Notes under the pieces: model-generated | What the model was told of the DNA's origin: nothing | What the model saw: only the letters and a program-made list of their open reading frames with translations | Databases searched by the model: none | Source: Psychrobacter sp. TAE2020 | GTDB taxonomy: Bacteria; Pseudomonadota; Gammaproteobacteria; Pseudomonadales; Moraxellaceae | Assembly: GCF_018919485.1 (NCBI RefSeq) | Contig: NZ_JAHLMU010000001.1 | Span: 2,175,538-2,239,537 of the forward strand | DNA: 64,000 bases | Direction: 5' to 3' | Program-made: the position numbers and the translations under genes | Part shown: positions 1 to 7,072 of the stretch, one piece after another | Layout of the letters: each line of letters starts with the position of its first letter | How positions within the stretch are numbered: the stretch's first letter is position 1

Positions 1-3
1 TTT

Positions 4-117
4 GCTGACGACAATAGCATGATGGCCCCACCTGATCCCTTCTCGAACTCAGAAGTGAAACATCATTGCGCCAATGGTAGTGTGGCTCCGGCCATGTGAG
101 AGTAGGTCATCGTCAGC
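4..117 (+). rRNA. rrf: 5S ribosomal RNA, last gene of an rRNA operon
   Basis: The stretch carries the 5S hallmarks: GAACTCAGAAGTGAAAC, the GCGCCAATGGTAGTGTGG region, and ends GCTGACGA and TCGTCAGC that pair perfectly as helix I. Length is about 114 nt, usual for gammaproteobacteria. The window opens only three bases before it, so the 23S gene is presumably just outside. An intrinsic terminator follows immediately, which marks this as the operon end. One small oddity: loop C reads TCTCGAAC where most 5S genes, and the second copy here, read CCCGAAC. Confidence 0.95.
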
Positions 118-128
118 TCTCTATTCTA

Positions 129-166
129 AAATTCCCTAATCAGTTATCTGGTTAGGGAATTTTTTT
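129..166 (+). terminator. rRNA operon intrinsic terminator
   Basis: An inverted repeat AATTCCCTAATC / GGTTAGGGAATT is followed by a run of seven T, 11 bases after the 5S gene. This is the expected end of the rRNA transcript. Confidence 0.9.
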
Positions 167-442
167 ATCTTTACTTTAGTAGTGACCTACGCAGAAAACC
201 CTATTTAAAGGGTTTTCTCTTGCGCTGCCTGAGAAGGAATAAGCGAAACAATGTTTCGCCCGGACGCCAGACAAGAATTGTGCTCGCAGTTTGGCATGTA
301 ATTTTTACGGTGCTCTTCTCGTTCCTCAGCTCCCTATTTAAAAAGCCCCCTAACTTGATTGTTGGGTGGCTTTTTTTTGTGCATGATTATGTTTATCCTA
401 TGCTATTATCGATTCAATTTAAACTCGTAAGAAGGAAATAAA
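167..442. other. structured non-coding stretch between 5S and a broken gene
   Basis: I see no convincing gene. A frame from 220 to 441 exists but runs through hairpin and terminator sequence. The stretch holds a perfect 10-bp stem (193-218, arms AGAAAACCCT/AGGGTTTTCT, not followed by a T-run), a short palindrome GCGAAACAATGTTTCGC (243-259), and a terminator-like hairpin at 341-378. A pair of loosely complementary segments (around 227-238 and 318-330) could close these into one folded RNA of about 180 nt. Function is unknown. Confidence 0.5.
341..378 (+). terminator. terminator-like hairpin upstream of the broken accessory gene
   Basis: Arms AAAAGCCCCCTAAC and GTTGGGTGGCTTTT pair with one mismatch and one G-U pair, followed by eight T in total. 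It could end a transcript coming from the 167-340 stretch and insulate the gene at 443. Confidence 0.75.
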
Positions 443-925
443 ATGAGCATTGAACAAAGATTTAGAAAAGAAGTTCAGAATCATTTAAGTAATCTGAGTT
501 CCGATATCAAACCAGTACTAAAACAGCTCATGGAATATAATTATCCAAAAGAAGTTGTGAGTTTAGAATTCGAAGTTTTCGCTGATGGGTTCACACAAGG
601 ATTTCCAGTGATGACTTTTTTTATGGATGAAAGTAATTCTGAGCATTTTATTGATGTAGATGGTCAAGCTCAATATCCGTGACCTGTTTATCCTGAGTTA
701 TTGGATATAGAGTATGTTTATTCTTATGAGCTTGAGGAAGAATATAGAAACAAAGATGAGGATATTGATTTATACACTATTGCTACTGAAGAGCTTATTA
801 AATGGTTTGCAGAATGCTGGAATGAAGTAGGCGGTAAATCGTTCAAGCTAAAAGCTAATATCGCACCTCATGACGATATTAATGAATATAATCTAATAGA
901 AAATAGATGGCAAGAGAGATTCTAG
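443..925 (+). pseudogene. conserved hypothetical gene interrupted by one in-frame TGA
   Basis: Codons run in one frame from ATG 443 to TAG 923-925, 161 codons including the stop, except for a single TGA at 680-682 (codon 80). Both halves look like one acidic globular protein. The first half ends ...VDGQAQYP and the frame continues PVYPELLDIEYVYSYELEEEY without a shift. The second half has a typical amphipathic segment (ATEELIKWFAECWNEVGGKSF). One base change from TCA or another sense codon would create the TGA. A TTG at 701 could restart translation of the C-terminal 74 residues, but no good ribosome binding site is seen. I do not recognise the family; its small acidic make-up resembles immunity or DUF proteins of accessory regions. 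It lies between two 5S copies. Alternatives are readthrough or a sequencing error. Confidence 0.7.
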
Positions 926-928
926 TTT

Positions 929-1050
929 GCTATAAAATAGACGATAATAGCACGATGGTATCATTTGATCCCTTCCCGAACTCAGAAGTGAAACATCATT
1001 GCGCCAATGGTAGTGTGGCTCCGGCCATGTGAGAGTAGGTCATCGTCAGC
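929..1050 (+). rRNA. second 5S rRNA copy with disrupted 5' end, possibly a pseudogene
   Basis: Positions 977-1059 are identical over 83 bases to 44-126 of the first 5S region. The 5' third differs: GCT is followed by an 8-base insertion (ATAAAATA, 932-939) before GACGATAATAGC, and several substitutions follow up to 970. Helix I could form only with an 8-nt bulge. No 16S or 23S lies directly upstream; the preceding sequence is the end of the broken 443-925 gene. It may be an orphan 5S left by recombination or an inserted extra copy. It has its own terminator just downstream. Whether a mature 5S is made is unclear. Confidence 0.75.
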
Positions 1051-1065
1051 TCTCTATTCCTCATT

Positions 1066-1098
1066 ACCCCCTTACGCGAAAGCGTAAGGGGGTTTTGT
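1066..1098 (+). terminator. terminator after second 5S copy
   Basis: A strong GC-rich stem ACCCCCTTACGC / GCGTAAGGGGGT closes a GAAA tetraloop and is followed by T-rich sequence. It sits 16 bases beyond the second 5S. Confidence 0.9.
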
Positions 1099-1270
1099 TT
1101 GTTTGTTCATTATATACAGTCTTTCTACTTGTGACTGTTAGCCTTAGAGTTTTTAATTCTTTTTAGAACGTTCTAAAACGTTTTATTTACGTAGAATTGG
1201 AGTTTCAGACTATCATTTTCTCAAACTATATATAATAATCAATTATTGTGCATTTTTATGGAGTTTAATT

Positions 1271-1465
1271 GTGACCTGGATAATTGATAATAAAGAGTGG
1301 CTTTTTAGTGGAGCAGCTTTAGGAGTTATAGGGTTATTAATACGACTTTTTAAAAAAAGTAGTCCATCCTCAGTCAATGAGCAAGTTCAGAGAGGAGGTC
1401 ACAACTCAACTAATATACAAGTTGGTGGAAGTTTAAATATAAGGGACAAGAAAGATGATGAGTAA
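1271..1465 (+). CDS. small membrane protein with GGxNSxNIQ motif
   Basis: This is a 64-residue protein starting at GTG, with ATGGAG seven bases upstream as ribosome binding site. Residues 9-27 form one hydrophobic membrane helix (WLFSGAALGVIGLLIRLF), followed by a basic KK and a polar tail. The tail holds GGHNSTNIQVGGSLNI (42-57). The same GGxNSxNxQ pattern opens the next gene, which it overlaps by 11 bases, so the two are almost certainly co-translated. The tetrad IQVG (49-52) matches the core pattern of RHIM-type amyloid motifs ([IV]Q[IVL]G); functional relevance is only inference. A plausible role is membrane anchor or effector partner of the downstream protein. I know no named family for this peptide. 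Confidence 0.75.
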   Translation: MTWIIDNKEWLFSGAALGVIGLLIRLFKKSSPSSVNEQVQRGGHNSTNIQVGGSLNIRDKKDDE

Positions 1466-2564
1466 GCAAACTCAAGAAGGAGGTGATAATTCTAGTAATT
1501 ATCAAGCTAAAGAAATGACAGTCAATATATCAGGAATTGACGAAAAACGTGCGAGAGAAATTTTTGAAGAGAAGCATGTTCAGTTAAGAAAAGATTATTC
1601 TGAAGAAGCAATGAAAATTGCTCAAACTAGAATTGATGAGTTTGAAAATAGACTAATGCCCAAGTTGAAAAATGTAGAAGGAGCTTTAGAAGCATTTGCA
1701 GATCCTAGTTTCCAATTATTATTAGTTGAAGCGCAGAAAACGGCTGCTGCTACAGAAAGACCTGCTGATTATGACCTTCTTTCTGAATTATTAGTGCATA
1801 GGTTTCAGAAAGGTGAGAATAGGATAGTAAGAGCAGGAATAAGTCGTGCTGTAAAGATTGTGGATGAGATATCTGATGATGCCCTACTAGGTTTAACGGT
1901 TCTACATGCTACAGGTCAGTTCCTACCTGCAACAGGAGATATTCGTCAAGGATTGAATATACTAGATAGTCTATTTGGCAAAATATTTTATCTTGAGTTA
2001 CCTACAGGTAGAGATTGGCTAGAACATTTAGAAATATTAAATACAGTTCGTTTAGATTCATTCAACACTTTGAAAAAAGTAGAGATCTTTTATTCTGAAC
2101 AGTTAAGTGGTTATGTAGATTCAGGTATACGTAAAGATTCTGAAAATTTTAGAAAAGCAATAATCATTCTCAAAAATAATAATATGCCTCAAAGTTTTTT
2201 AGTAGATCATACTTTAAACTCCGATTTTGTAAGAATACCAGTTGTGTTTAGAGAGGTAATTGATAAACTTTTCTTACTTCAATTAGTTGAGCACGACGGC
2301 AAACTAATTCAAAAAAGAGTAGGCTTAACTATAGAACAAGTAAAGGCGGTCAATGATATTTACAATCTTTATGATGAAAATGAAGATACTAGAAATGAGA
2401 ATATAAATGCATTTACGAAAATTTGGGATCAACATACGCATTTGAAAATGCTTAGAAAGTGGTGGAATGATCTAAATAATGCTTTTAAACTTACATCCGT
2501 AGGAAAGGTACTAGCTCACTCTAATGCACAAAGATGTGATAACAATCTTCCACCATTAGATTAA
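1455..2564 (+). CDS. LPO_1073/Vpar_1526 family protein
   Basis: This 369-residue soluble protein has an N-terminal SKQTQEGGDNSSNYQAKEM segment followed by TVNISGIDEKRAREIFEEK. I recognise this arrangement from the LPO_1073/Vpar_1526 family, which has a polar GDNSxNxQA lead-in, then a charged helix, then an all-alpha body. Biochemical function of the family is unknown to me. Residues 30-80 are strongly charged and helical. The middle contains a hydrophobic block (ALLGLTVLHATGQFLPATGD, about residues 142-161). No nuclease, ATPase or membrane signature is visible. It starts inside the end of the preceding 64-aa gene and shares the GGxNSxNxQ motif with it, implying a joint complex. Low-GC codon use and its place beside 5S copies suggest acquired DNA. 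Confidence 0.75.
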   Translation: MMSKQTQEGGDNSSNYQAKEMTVNISGIDEKRAREIFEEKHVQLRKDYSEEAMKIAQTRIDEFENRLMPKLKNVEGALEAFADPSFQLLLVEAQKTAAATERPADYDLLSELLVHRFQKGENRIVRAGISRAVKIVDEISDDALLGLTVLHATGQFLPATGDIRQGLNILDSLFGKIFYLELPTGRDWLEHLEILNTVRLDSFNTLKKVEIFYSEQLSGYVDSGIRKDSENFRKAIIILKNNNMPQSFLVDHTLNSDFVRIPVVFREVIDKLFLLQLVEHDGKLIQKRVGLTIEQVKAVNDIYNLYDENEDTRNENINAFTKIWDQHTHLKMLRKWWNDLNNAFKLTSVGKVLAHSNAQRCDNNLPPLD

Positions 2565-2702
2565 TTTAGTTTAGCAGTATCGCTAATTTCTATAACAACG
2601 CTGTTACTAAGAATTAAATACTGTATTACTTACTTATAATTTACTGTATGAATAAAAATTTAAGAAGGACTATTACTAATATCTAGATCTGAAATAGAGA
2701 AT

Positions 2703-3065
2703 ATGAAAACTTGGCCAAGAAATTTGAGCACTGCTCAAGGTGGAGGACTTTCGACGTCACAATATGGAGGTATGTCTACATCTCAATATGGAGGTATGTC
2801 TACTTCTCAATACGGGGGACTGTCTACATCGCAGTATGGGGGTTTATCTACGTCACAATATGGCGGCTTGTCAACATCGCAATACGGTGATTTATCAACA
2901 TCACAAGGTGGTGGTATGTCTACTTCTTCAAGCAATGTATATAAAAGCAATATTCCACCTTGGCCAGTTTTTATCAGGGAACTTGAATTAAGAGGCTATC
3001 AAGCTCAAGCAAAATTAATTCGTCAACGTTTACCAGAATACTTGTGGCCAGAAAACTTCTTTTAA
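2703..3065 (+). CDS. octapeptide-repeat protein (STSQYGG repeats) with conserved C-terminal tail
   Basis: This is a 120-residue protein. Residues 8-71 are eight tandem units of eight residues, consensus (L/M)STSQYGG, encoded by a 24-bp tandem repeat. Residues 80-120 form a different, probably helical tail ([21 protein letters not shown]...). Repeats of this Gly-rich type followed by an IPPxPxFxxxLxxRG tail occur in small accessory proteins I have met before, but I cannot name the family or function. Synonymous codons vary between units, so the array is selected as protein and is not a fresh expansion. The unit length keeps frame when copy number changes. It lies 138 bases after the LPO_1073-type gene and may belong to the same cassette. 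Signal peptide and membrane helices are absent. Confidence 0.75.
2724..2915 (+). repeat. 24-bp tandem repeat inside the octapeptide protein gene
   Basis: There are eight consecutive 24-base units (core TCxACxTCxCAxTAxGGxGG) with diverged third positions. There are no spacers, so this is a coding minisatellite and not a CRISPR array. Confidence 0.9.
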
Positions 3066-3123
3066 TTAACACGAAAAATATTAAACTAGAATTATTTATT
3101 ATCTATTTCGTAATTCCAGTCTT

Positions 3124-3375
3124 TCAAAACAACTCCCCAACCTCAACCACCTCATCAAAATCAAATCCTAGTTGCTGATCTTTGAGTTGCTCAATACGCT
3201 GTTTGCGGCCTGCTATTAGCCTTAGCACGTCACGACGCTGTTCATTGGTCATACTGAGCCATAACTGACGCTCAGTACGACTGCGCAGACAGCCGAAGCA
3301 ATAGCCCTTTTTATTGCTAGTGCAAACACTAACGCAGGGACTGGCAATATCAAACAATTCGATTTGTTGAGTCAT
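3124..3375 (-). CDS. DUF1289 domain-containing protein
   Basis: This is an 83-residue protein if started at the ATG whose complement is at 3373-3375 (MTQQIELFDI). A longer in-frame start at 3447 would add 24 residues that look non-homologous (MHKCIFSESAVLC...). Residues 10-45 contain the family pattern SPCVSVCTSNKKGYCFGCLRS with four cysteines, then ERQLWLSMTNEQRRDVL. DUF1289 proteins are small cysteine-rich proteins sometimes called Fe-S oxidoreductase-like; a metal site is likely but the role is undefined. It is divergent from yqiA. The first core gene after the accessory block is on the opposite strand. Confidence 0.9.
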   Translation of the reverse strand: MTQQIELFDIASPCVSVCTSNKKGYCFGCLRSRTERQLWLSMTNEQRRDVLRLIAGRKQRIEQLKDQQLGFDFDEVVEVGELF

Positions 3376-3598
3376 GGCGATATCACGCTCATTGTGCGGT
3401 CTTTTAATACATAATACTGCACTTTCAGAAAAAATACACTTATGCAAAAATAGCTGGATTAATAGCTCTATTATGCCTCTACTGCTTATCAGTGTGCCAT
3501 ATTGCTATTATTACTCTAGACTGCTATATGCTATGATTTTTAGCATAGACTAAATTCTTATCATAAAACAAAAACAAATTTAACAAGTGAGCAAAGAC

Positions 3599-4219
3599 AT
3601 GAACCTTATCTATATTCATGGGCTAGACAGTGACGCCAATTCTACCAAGGGTCTGCTATTAGAGGAATATTGCCAACAGCACCATGCTGACATTAAGGTG
3701 CATCGCCCTGATCTCAATCAACCACCGAAAATAGTTTTTTATAAATTATTGCAGTTAGTGGCAGAGCTAGATACTGAGTCTGAAGTGGTGCTAGTCGGCA
3801 GCTCATTAGGCGGTTACTTCGCTACTTTGGTCAGTAATGAAACAGGCTGTCCTGCGCTGCTTATTAATCCAAGTACTTTACCGCATATTACCCTACAACG
3901 TTTTGAAGCCGATAAGAGTGCTGATACCTTTAAGACAGATAATGATGAAGACAAGGTTCTGCATACTACTGATGGCGGCTGGGCTGTTACTAAAGCAGAT
4001 TTGCAGTGGTTCGCTCATCATCAGCTCCTATCGGTTGATAATCCGAGTCAAGTTACGGTGCTGCTAAAAAAAGGCGATGAATTGCTAGATGCTAATCTAT
4101 CAGCAGCGTTTTATAAGCATCAAGGTGCGACGGTAATTATGCAAGCAGGTGGTGATCATCGCTTTAGTGATTTTAAAGAGCATTTACCGGAAGTTTTTGA
4201 AATACTAAAACAACTATAG
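3599..4219 (+). CDS. yqiA: YqiA/YcfP family alpha/beta-fold esterase
   Basis: This is a 206-residue hydrolase starting MNLIYIHGLDSDANSTKG. The nucleophile elbow is GSSLGGYFAT (G-x-S-x-G with Ser near residue 75). DELLDA (Asp) and the late GGDHRF (His) complete a Ser-Asp-His triad. This is the YqiA pattern, cytoplasmic and active on short acyl esters. A GTG at 3587 would add four residues, but AAGTGAG sits at proper distance before the ATG at 3599, so I prefer that start. It precedes parE by 127 bases in the same order as yqiA-parE in enterobacteria, though linkage in one transcript is not shown here. Confidence 0.9.
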   Translation: MNLIYIHGLDSDANSTKGLLLEEYCQQHHADIKVHRPDLNQPPKIVFYKLLQLVAELDTESEVVLVGSSLGGYFATLVSNETGCPALLINPSTLPHITLQRFEADKSADTFKTDNDEDKVLHTTDGGWAVTKADLQWFAHHQLLSVDNPSQVTVLLKKGDELLDANLSAAFYKHQGATVIMQAGGDHRFSDFKEHLPEVFEILKQL

Positions 4220-4346
4220 TTAAATTGCTGGCTGACAGAGACGACATTATATGACGTACGCGGTTGACTATTCCCCTAAATAACGCCATTTTTGGTTATA
4301 ATAGAGCTATAGAATTTATTGTTTATGACTATTCAAGGAAGTATTT

Positions 4347-6236
4347 GTGAGTCAATATACTGCGCAATCGTTAGAAGTTTTAGAAGGGCTTGAACCAGTA
4401 CGTCGCCGTCCTGGTATGTATACCGATACTACTCGTCCCAATCATCTGGCACAAGAAGTCATCGATAACTCAGTTGATGAAGCATTAGCAGGTTATGCCA
4501 AAATCATTAAAGTGCATCTTTATGAGGATGGGTCATTATCAGTAGAAGATGATGGCCGTGGTATGCCAACCGATATTCATCCCGAATTTAAGCAAACGGG
4601 CATTGAGATTATTTTAACTCGTCTGCATGCTGGTGGTAAGTTTTCGACCTCCAATTATCAAGTTTCAGGTGGTCTGCACGGAGTAGGTATTTCAGTAGTT
4701 AATGCCTTATCAACACGCCTTGAAGTTACCGTTTGGCGTGATGCTATCCAGTATGATATGGCACTTGAGAATGGCGCACCTGTAACCGAATTGGTTGAGT
4801 CGGTTAGTCCGAATAAGCGTAAGCGCGGTACTAAAGTACGTTTTTGGGCTGATGGAAGTTTTTTTGATAGCCCTAAATTCAATATCAAGCAGCTCAAGCA
4901 TAATTTAAAAGCAAAAGCAGTATTGGCCGCTGGTCTTACTATTGAGTTCGTTGATGATATTAATAACGAAAAGATCGTTTGGCAGTTTACTGATGGGGTC
5001 GTTGAGTATTTAGGTGAGCAGCTAGATGGCCTTGAGACTCTCCCAGAGGTGCCTTTTTATTATCATCATGAAGCTCAAGATGGTGCACGGGCAGGAATTA
5101 CTTTTGCCTTGTCGTGGCTACCTGAAGGTGGCACACCAGTGCAAGAGAGTTATGTGAACCTTATTCCTACCGCGCAAGGGGGTACGCACGTAAATGGTCT
5201 ACGTACTGGCATCTTAGAGGCGTTACGTGAGTTCTGTGATATTCATAACTTGCTACCTCGCAGTGTGAAGCTGACCGCAGAGGACGTATGGGATGGTATT
5301 AACTATATCTTATCGCTGAAATTCTCTGAGCCGCAATTTTCAGGACAGACTAAAGAGCGTCTTTCTAGTCGGGAAGCTGCTGGAGCCGTACAAACTTTAG
5401 CCAAAGATGCCTTTAGCTTATGGCTTAACAAACATGCTGATTTAGGCACACAAATCGCTGAACTGGCGATTAACAAAGCTGGCCGTCGTCTCAAATCCGC
5501 TAAAAAAGTCGCTCGTAAAAAGATTACTCAAGGCCCAGCCTTACCCGGTAAGTTGGCAGACTGTCGTGGTGATTTACGTGATGGGGCAGAGTTGTTTTTA
5601 GTGGAAGGGGATTCAGCTGGTGGTAGTGCCAAACAAGCACGAGATCGCCATTATCAGGCGATATTACCCTTACGCGGCAAGATTTTAAATACTTGGGAAG
5701 TGTCGTCCGATACGGTGCTATCGAGCCAAGAGATCCATGATATTGCCATTGCTATCGGTGTTGATCCAGCCTCTGATGATCTGTCTGAACTACGCTATGA
5801 CAAAGTCTGTATCTTAGCCGATGCCGATTCGGATGGCTTGCATATTGCCACCCTGATTTGCGCCTTGTTTGTAAAGCATTTTCCAGCGCTAGTAGATGCT
5901 GGCCATCTATTTGTAGCAATGCCACCTTTGTATCGAGTCGATGTCGGTCGCGAGGTACACTATGCTTTGGATGAGCCAGAGCTTCAGCATATATTAGCCA
6001 AAGTTCCCGGCAATAAAAAAGCGCAAATCACTCGCTTTAAAGGTCTGGGAGAAATGAGCGCTGAACAGCTGCGTGAAACTACTATGAATCGTGATACTCG
6101 CCGCCTAGTGCAGTTAGATATGGACGATATGGTATTGACTAATAGTGTAATGGATATGTTACTAGCCAAAAAACGCTCAGCTGATCGTAAGTTATGGCTA
6201 GAAGATAAAGGCAACTTGGCCAATATATCCTTGTAA
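4347..6236 (+). CDS. parE: DNA topoisomerase IV subunit B
   Basis: This is a 629-residue ParE, the ATPase subunit of topoisomerase IV, which decatenates sister chromosomes with ParC. The GHKL fold shows EVIDNSVDEALAG (ATP-Mg Asn), DDGRGMPTD, and GGLHGVGISVVNAL (ATP lid). The TOPRIM domain has ELFLVEGDSAGGSAKQARDR (Glu of the metal site) and ILADADSDGLHI (the DxD). The C-terminal GyrB-type motif is RFKGLGEMSAEQLRETTMN. Length matches E. coli ParE (630), which separates it from the longer GyrB. The start is GTG with AAGGAA six bases before it. parC is not in the window. Confidence 0.97.
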   Translation: MSQYTAQSLEVLEGLEPVRRRPGMYTDTTRPNHLAQEVIDNSVDEALAGYAKIIKVHLYEDGSLSVEDDGRGMPTDIHPEFKQTGIEIILTRLHAGGKFSTSNYQVSGGLHGVGISVVNALSTRLEVTVWRDAIQYDMALENGAPVTELVESVSPNKRKRGTKVRFWADGSFFDSPKFNIKQLKHNLKAKAVLAAGLTIEFVDDINNEKIVWQFTDGVVEYLGEQLDGLETLPEVPFYYHHEAQDGARAGITFALSWLPEGGTPVQESYVNLIPTAQGGTHVNGLRTGILEALREFCDIHNLLPRSVKLTAEDVWDGINYILSLKFSEPQFSGQTKERLSSREAAGAVQTLAKDAFSLWLNKHADLGTQIAELAINKAGRRLKSAKKVARKKITQGPALPGKLADCRGDLRDGAELFLVEGDSAGGSAKQARDRHYQAILPLRGKILNTWEVSSDTVLSSQEIHDIAIAIGVDPASDDLSELRYDKVCILADADSDGLHIATLICALFVKHFPALVDAGHLFVAMPPLYRVDVGREVHYALDEPELQHILAKVPGNKKAQITRFKGLGEMSAEQLRETTMNRDTRRLVQLDMDDMVLTNSVMDMLLAKKRSADRKLWLEDKGNLANISL

Positions 6237-6391
6237 GCCACTGTTTCTATAGCATAAAATATTATATATTAACAGGTTTTCTGCTACTAATAATCTATAA
6301 GATTATTGTTGGACAAAAGCCTATAAAAGATGATTTAGTAAGCTTAAGTTGATGTTATGATGGCAGTATATTTTCATTATGCGGTGCCATT

Positions 6392-7072
6392 ATGACATCC
6401 AAGTTTGCAACATATTCTAAGATCGGTCGCTCTAAAAAACTACCTAAATTAACTAGAAAAGACTTAGGGGATTTAGTTCCTAAGCGCAATGGCAGCATCG
6501 TGCCTCCTATATCCTCGTGGCTGATGAAAGTTGCCGGTTGGCGCACAGTCGGTGAAATACCTAATATTTCACAAGCAGTAGTACTAGCGCTACCTCATAC
6601 CTCAAACATTGATGGCGTTTATGCGCTTCCCTGTCTCTTTGCATTAGATGTAAAAATCAGCATTATGGGTAAGCATACTTTGTTTAAAGTGCCAGTGCTG
6701 AAGCATTTACTACAATGGATGGGCATAATACCTATTAATCGTAGTGCCAAAGGCTCAGTGCTGCAAACCAGTATTGATAAATTCAAGAATGGTGAACCAC
6801 TATTTTTAGGCTTATCGCCTGAAGGTACGCGTGACTATACCGAAAGCTGGAAAACGGGGTTTTATTATCTAGCACTAGGCGCTAATGTACCGATTTTGCC
6901 GGTGGCGCTTGATTACAATACTAAAGAAGTACGCTTTTTATCCCCAGTATATCCTACTGGCGATATCGAAGCTGACTTGCCAAAGATCTATCAGCAATAT
7001 CGTGGTGTGCTGCCTAGACATCCTGAGCGTCTATCGCAGCCGCTACAGGACATCAATAACACTATTGAATAA
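6392..7072 (+). CDS. lysophospholipid acyltransferase family protein (PlsC-like)
   Basis: This is a 226-residue member of the glycerophospholipid acyltransferase fold. Motif I is HTSNID (the HxxxxD catalytic pair), motif III is LSPEGTRDY, and PILPVALD fits motif IV. Such proteins transfer acyl groups to lysophospholipid-like acceptors at the inner membrane. The N-terminal 40 residues are basic and not strongly hydrophobic, so it is probably peripheral. The protein is slightly short compared with PlsC, and the variant HTSNID is typical of the YihG/'1-acyl-sn-glycerol-3-phosphate acyltransferase-like' subgroup rather than housekeeping PlsC. Substrate is not predicted. It stands alone between parE and a convergent SDR gene. 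Confidence 0.88.
   Translation: MTSKFATYSKIGRSKKLPKLTRKDLGDLVPKRNGSIVPPISSWLMKVAGWRTVGEIPNISQAVVLALPHTSNIDGVYALPCLFALDVKISIMGKHTLFKVPVLKHLLQWMGIIPINRSAKGSVLQTSIDKFKNGEPLFLGLSPEGTRDYTESWKTGFYYLALGANVPILPVALDYNTKEVRFLSPVYPTGDIEADLPKIYQQYRGVLPRHPERLSQPLQDINNTIE

Follow-up and report, generated by a model that had tools for sequence, protein, structure and literature searches.

Accessory gene cargo and 5S rRNA relics at the 3' ends of Psychrobacter rRNA operons

The 3' ends of rRNA (rrn) operons in the cold-loving genus Psychrobacter carry hypervariable gene cargo, with families that are common to different operons. On the far side of some of this cargo lie 5S rRNA scars in which the 3' part is kept, and one such relic, in Psychrobacter sp. 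TAE2020, is a mosaic of two 5S types. Judged from sequence comparison, these operon ends probably act as shared docking sites at which small gene cargo is gained, swapped and lost. Homologous recombination with the rRNA operon as its anchor is the likely means of this exchange, and the pieces of 5S are probably its scars. All of the support is comparative; transfer is read from genomes and not from an observed event.

Two copies of 5S in the TAE2020 window

The window, the whole stretch of 64,000 nucleotides analysed here (C1:2175538-2239537), starts directly after a 100-N scaffold gap (L005 9901-10000), so the 16S-23S part of the operon is unassembled at this place. An rrn promoter-like sequence lies to the left of the gap, which probably hides the whole operon body. 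There is no N between the first 5S (5S1) and the second. The features that follow the gap are collected in Table 1. Three units, each consisting of a 5S tail and a terminator, stand in series at 4-170, 325-378 and 940-1100; older remnants are stacked behind the newest insertion, the arrangement of sequential displacement. The earlier note had described a terminator, a folded stretch and a broken gene between the 5S copies, and all three were found again, as a hairpin at 128-163, a fold at 176-376 and a reading frame interrupted by a TGA.

Table 1. Features at the start of the window, with the evidence for each
Feature	Position	Strand	Evidence
5S rRNA copy 1 (5S1), end of the rrn operon	4..118	+	Rfam, 89.3 bits
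Terminator T1	128..170	+	16-nt inverted repeat 128-143 / 148-163, then T run
E element, long form (structured dispersed repeat)	183..324	+	Model R1 match 183-280, 43.4 bits
Short 15-base copy of the 5S 3' tail, CTCAGCTCCCTATTT	325..339	+	Third copy of the tail
T2, terminator-like hairpin of rrn type	344..378	+	Sequence; similar hairpins behind 5S tails in relatives
Cargo gene, one in-frame TGA at 680-682	443..925	+	ORF; intact homologues in G041, G079
5S relic, 5S nt 4-115 and 8 nt of tail	940..1059	+	Rfam, repeat and profile matches
Terminator T3	1066..1100	+	Orthologue of the terminator behind the lone P. urativorans 5S at this locus
Second-layer cargo, small ORF (64 aa)	1271..1465	+	ORF list
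Second-layer cargo, LPO_1073/Vpar_1526 family protein	1455..2564	+	NCBIfam NF045477, 102.5 bits
Second-layer cargo, ALTTAQ-repeat protein	2703..3065	+	Pfam PF20080
yqiA-like gene (UPF0227), conserved anchor of rrn locus A	3587..4219	+	Domain match

The broken cargo gene (443-925) was found in 3 of 105 genomes and each time behind an rrn operon, at locus A in the window and at locus B in G041 and G079. Its intact relatives share 67% protein identity (G041 to window) and 71-73% DNA identity with it. No Pfam family scored above the cut-off for this gene, and its homologue P0001 matched no NCBIfam or PADLOC family. Further to the right, the LPO_1073/Vpar_1526 protein (family F36) has a homologue at rrn locus B of G076. 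The window proteins at 1455-2561 and 2703-3062 gave zero PADLOC matches, and the ALTTAQ-repeat protein is encoded by 24-nt tandem repeats at 2741-2950. The UPF0227 gene, which we take to be yqiA, is present in 104 of the 105 genomes.

The Rfam 5S_rRNA model matched the second copy at 937-1051 (74.1 bits, E 8.5e-14) and a 5S profile matched it at E 4.3e-39, while shuffled sequence gave 0 matches. The identity of 44-126 and 977-1059 over 83 bases that the earlier note reported was confirmed, and the longer pair 7-126 / 940-1059 is 93% identical. The note had also proposed several upstream changes and an 8-base insertion in helix I of the second copy. The changes are real: there are 8 of them, and all fall in nt 4-40 of the relic. 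The insertion is uncertain, as Rfam aligns the second 5S without it, TTTGCT at 926-931 alone suggests it, and the copy is equally readable as starting at 5S nt 4, shortly past the stop of the cargo gene.

The differences divide the relic in two. Identity to 5S1 is 29/40 on the left side and 75/75 on the right; the count of 8 changes omits nt 1-3, which are not alignable. Relic nt 41-115 equal the resident genome's own 5S and are 1 base off the P. urativorans 5S. For nt 4-40 of the relic, the best match is the G082 5S, with 4 differences vs. 8 to the genome's own 5S, and four of the relic's 8 changes match another lineage's 5S. These comparisons drew on 32 distinct full-length 5S sequences in the loci studied, those of 115 nt being compared position by position. 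Under simple models, the clustering of the changes has P 4.6e-5 and the four foreign-type states have P 1.3e-5. The mosaic thus appears to mark an exchange inside the 5S; it is compatible alike with the exchange that brought the cargo and with later gene conversion by 5S1, and could stem from either. The foreign-looking half could also be an older state of the lineage. No remnant of 23S or of the 23S-5S spacer was found upstream of the window relic.

The sister species P. urativorans ACAM534 (G101) was used to identify the resident end of the operon. Window 1-126 (99%) and 940-1101 (93%) both align to one stretch of its contig C13, which holds one intact 5S and a terminator upstream of yqiA. 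In front of this 5S, the sequence as far as the contig end is normal 23S-5S spacer. Since the sister has one 5S with a T3-type terminator, the right-hand 5S and T3 are read as the resident end and the segment from 5S1 to the gene, which is absent from P. urativorans locus A, as the extra. The earlier note proposed that unequal recombination duplicated the 5S around a cargo; recombination through the 5S gains support from the mosaic second copy and from a sister species with one 5S. Window 3123-7000 is 94% identical to P. urativorans. The intervening 1102-3122 does not align to it and is cargo other than the sister's, a second layer of change. The 5S1-T1-E junction was found independently in P. 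urativorans, at two loci. At its locus B, the T1-E insertion is ~135 nt long and is flanked by a 24-nt duplication of the 5S tail; this insertion is not in the TAE2020 genome.

The TAE2020 genome (G000) has other irregular places near rrn sequence. One is the second rrn locus (C1:1323466-1323807), where an N gap stands between identical copies of 5S (1323466 and 1323693). Because the contig ends are identical, this pair is most likely an artefact, that is, duplicated contig ends. At C1 about 2386640-2386790 (L118 about 6640-6790), an rrn promoter region is joined directly, without N, to the flank found after the third rrn operon in P. urativorans; an entire rRNA operon seems to have disappeared there from the TAE2020 genome, with its promoter kept as a scar.

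Cargo and 5S relics across the genus

Three conserved rrn loci were recognized: A (yqiA), B (families F1-F2-F3) and C (F5 to F9). A total of 99 rrn ends were mapped and 95 were assigned, 36 to A, 33 to B and 26 to C, with L088 and L094 placed by hand and L140, L183, L085 and L089 unassignable to a locus. Between the 5S and the first conserved gene there are 175 ORFs (>=80 aa) in 115 families. Conserved flanks with unrelated cargo between them, the pattern of a gene-turnover hotspot, were found at A, B and C. Thirty-six cargo families have at least 2 members, and 15 of the 36 occur at 2 or more loci; these counts of sharing are descriptive and ignore shared ancestry, and common descent accounts for part of the recurrence at a single locus. 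Family F21 occurs at all three loci. It is present in 21/105 genomes, and judged by coordinates 17 copies sit no more than 500 nt from a detected 5S. The remaining copies are at contig ends (G061, G049), beside an rrn-type E element (G058) or, in the case of a distant paralogue of 51% identity (G056), elsewhere.

The nature of the cargo was evaluated with Pfam in 40 proteins picked by family size and length from the 115 families. Mobility domains (rve or IS605-type) were present in 3 of the 40, and neither these 40 proteins nor the window cargo contained a tyrosine or serine integrase; the cargo shares its paucity of mobility genes with gene-turnover hotspots. PADLOC defence models were matched by 12 of 30 large cargo proteins, a chosen sample with no baseline. 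The matches comprise a TIR effector, LmuB-like, Old-like and DpdB/DndB-like proteins and PDC candidates, and the loci concerned include L157, L195, L143, L099, L094, L164 and L079. Such matches hint at what cargo is traded. A 579-aa cargo protein on the minus strand at locus B matched no NCBIfam or PADLOC family, and its homologue had no PADLOC or Pfam match.

The search for relics covered Psychrobacter genomes. A 5S search, combined with local scans of some ends, detected a second or partial 5S downstream of rrn ends in at least 16/105 genomes (G000 (twice), G001, G002, G009, G015, G026, G034, G061, G068, G071, G073, G076, G088, G096, G101 and G104). In G061 and G104, the upstream 5S is itself unassembled (contig end), and G001 was counted by its profile match (E 0.00065), the BLAST match being just 34 nt. 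A 5S piece at a contig end (G080:C76) and a minus-strand match at E 0.075 (L103) were excluded. That the 5S end is a recurrent insertion point, as the earlier note suggested, is supported by these relics, which differ in cargo and break points. A second copy at every operon without cargo, the pattern named there as refuting, was not seen when the rrn ends were compared.

The frequency of relics was determined for 80 defined rrn 3' ends, taken from 27 near-complete genomes; 2.2-6.2 kb was read per end, and one rrn end of G102 was left out. A relic was present at E<0.01 in 6 of the 80 ends and a short tail at E 0.02-0.08 in 3 more; shuffles gave 0. Because relics are a minority, most cargo exchange would leave no 5S scar. 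All nine sequences are on the same strand (+) as the operon and extend to model position 122-123: each retains its 3' end, and what varies is how much is missing on the 5' side. The starts are scattered, the leftmost lying at the 23S 3' end and the rightmost near 5S nt 93, and the relics of L006, L067, L069, L072 and L088 begin in the 23S-5S spacer. Beyond locus A, relics occur at B (L006, L079) and C (L187). One mechanism for all relics was considered and rejected, because spacer-bearing relics and within-5S relics may differ in origin.

Proposed exchange at operon ends and the alternatives

In the proposed exchange, DNA of another operon or species would pair, on the left, with the conserved operon sequence, which is roughly 5 kb long. 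On the right there are two options: pairing with a 5S piece that the cargo already has at its far end, or end joining within the resident 5S. The operon would thereby acquire cargo together with a fresh 5S tail, while the resident 5S would stay downstream as a relic. In the window, the segment composed of 5S1, T1, E, the 5S tail, T2 and the gene would have been added before the terminal 5S already resident at the yqiA locus. The exchange on the right, or else gene conversion at a later time, would have fallen near nt 40 of the relic. The direct 5S repeats could permit renewed loss of the cargo. Natural transformation is the likely route of DNA uptake. The route is feasible, as a published laboratory test reports transformation of Psychrobacter marincola with rRNA-flanked marker plasmids, at ~1e-5 to 1e-6 in transformable isolates (PMC3364145).

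The second 5S might instead be what is left of a tandem rrn operon that lost its promoter, 16S and 23S by deletion, the cargo being inter-operon sequence or a later arrival. Tandem decay is the serious rival, although for the window it is judged unlikely. According to 5S and yqiA coordinates, 21 of 26 other near-complete genomes have 2-4 operons in tandem at locus A, a few inter-operon spacers contain ORFs (G006, G047), and one operon seems to have been deleted from the TAE2020 genome. The five relics that retain part of the 23S-5S spacer are explained as well by a decayed tandem operon. However, the window relic lacks any such remnant, and its 5' part carries another lineage's states, which would not be expected from a deleted operon of the genome itself. 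Moreover, in the 26 genomes arrays were found only at locus A, whereas relics also occur at B and C. The tandem spacers upstream of yqiA measured 0.6-2.8 kb in 12 cases, 8 of which are 0.6-0.8 kb with at most one short ORF each. Tandem decay and cargo exchange may both act in the genus.

Constant retention of the 5S 3' part, together with the 5S tails that flank the E cassette in 21/21 rrn-linked copies, might instead indicate a site-specific integrative element that uses the 3' part of 5S as its attachment site, in the manner of elements that target tRNA genes, the relic being the displaced original end. This is very improbable, as the scattered relic starts do not agree with a fixed crossover, no linked integrase was found (the 40 scanned cargo proteins include a few IS-type transposases only) and the cargo differs almost every time. 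A further proposal, that the 5S 3' tail, often with E, is the joining site of a dedicated integron-like system in which cassettes are added at the operon and older ones pushed outward, at three loci and in many species, is rated unlikely. Least probable of all is an assembly artefact around a collapsed repeat. The scaffold gap at the window start and the probably artefactual 5S duplicate at the gap of the second rrn locus speak for it, but the two 5S copies in the window differ and have no N between them, the 5S1-T1-E junction recurs in P. urativorans, and the relic is joined to a T3-type terminator in the window as it is there.

Exchange of cargo anchored in the rRNA operon, the preferred reading, resembles several known systems. 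In Neisseria, minimal mobile elements consist of alternative cassettes between conserved genes that are swapped by transformation; they lie between two protein genes at single-copy loci and are not known to have RNA-gene scars. The exchange proposed for the Psychrobacter rrn ends is like theirs in swapping cassettes and unlike it in the multicopy rRNA flank and the 5S scars. Integrative elements at tRNA genes duplicate the 3' part of the RNA gene at the far end of the cargo. The Psychrobacter ends also repeat the 3' part of an RNA gene, but their crossover points vary and the cargo scanned lacks a linked integrase. Serial displacement is a known kind of process, and so is the recombination hotspot, whereas rRNA operons as a shared anchor with 5S scars look like a new variation; among open-licence PubMed Central papers, no listed title or opening abstract treats the 3' ends of rRNA operons as places for cargo or mentions relics of 5S.

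Gene-turnover hotspots (PMC5635113) share with the rrn ends a fast turnover of cargo between conserved flanks and few mobility genes, and are expected in transformable bacteria; recombination at the flanking genes is described for them. Unlike in those hotspots, the left flank in Psychrobacter is a multicopy rRNA operon, which would open three chromosomal loci to the same cargo, and past events would be recorded by 5S relics. The effector-immunity arrays of the Vibrio cholerae T6SS (Kirchberger et al. 2017, PMC5361080) are alike in having a one-sided conserved anchor and displaced remnants downstream, and homology-facilitated illegitimate joining is proposed for the side opposite the anchor. 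In Psychrobacter the anchor is rRNA, part of an RNA gene forms the remnant, and the cargo is diverse in contrast to the toxin-immunity pairs of Vibrio. rRNA operons are among the most conserved long sequences common to species and therefore offer a ready-made anchor for foreign genes. If the preferred reading is true, accessory genes would in general enter and be exchanged at rRNA operons, and the history of such events could be read from 5S relics. Exchange at operon ends is testable in this transformable genus.

The E element

The stretch 176-376 of the window folded better than 200 of 200 shuffles (z -3.96), and homologues of the E element within it were found behind 5S at 20 further loci. 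Twelve copies gave 24 pairs, 12 of them with double changes, and the stems covary. No Rfam family reached its gathering score for the folded stretch, and the weak matches (up to E 5) were set aside as they look like chance. The E model has matches in 100/105 genomes, with 1-31 copies each and 13 in the TAE2020 genome. Among 20 non-rrn E regions chosen, 11 contain tRNA genes (ARAGORN), and E abuts the 5' end of tRNA-Lys or tRNA-Val.

In 21 of 28 E loci tested, E lies <=140 nt past a 5S. A copy of the 5S tail is present within 300 nt of the E start in all 21 of these 5S-linked copies; as a control, shuffled 300-mers matched in 9/2000. The other seven loci comprise five without a tail copy, one with (L016) and one with no match (L024). 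The short E cassette thus has the same layout as the gene cargo. In G032, direct repeats of roughly 48 nt stand on both sides of the E copy (L119 about 340-550), a pattern that an insertion with target duplication would leave.
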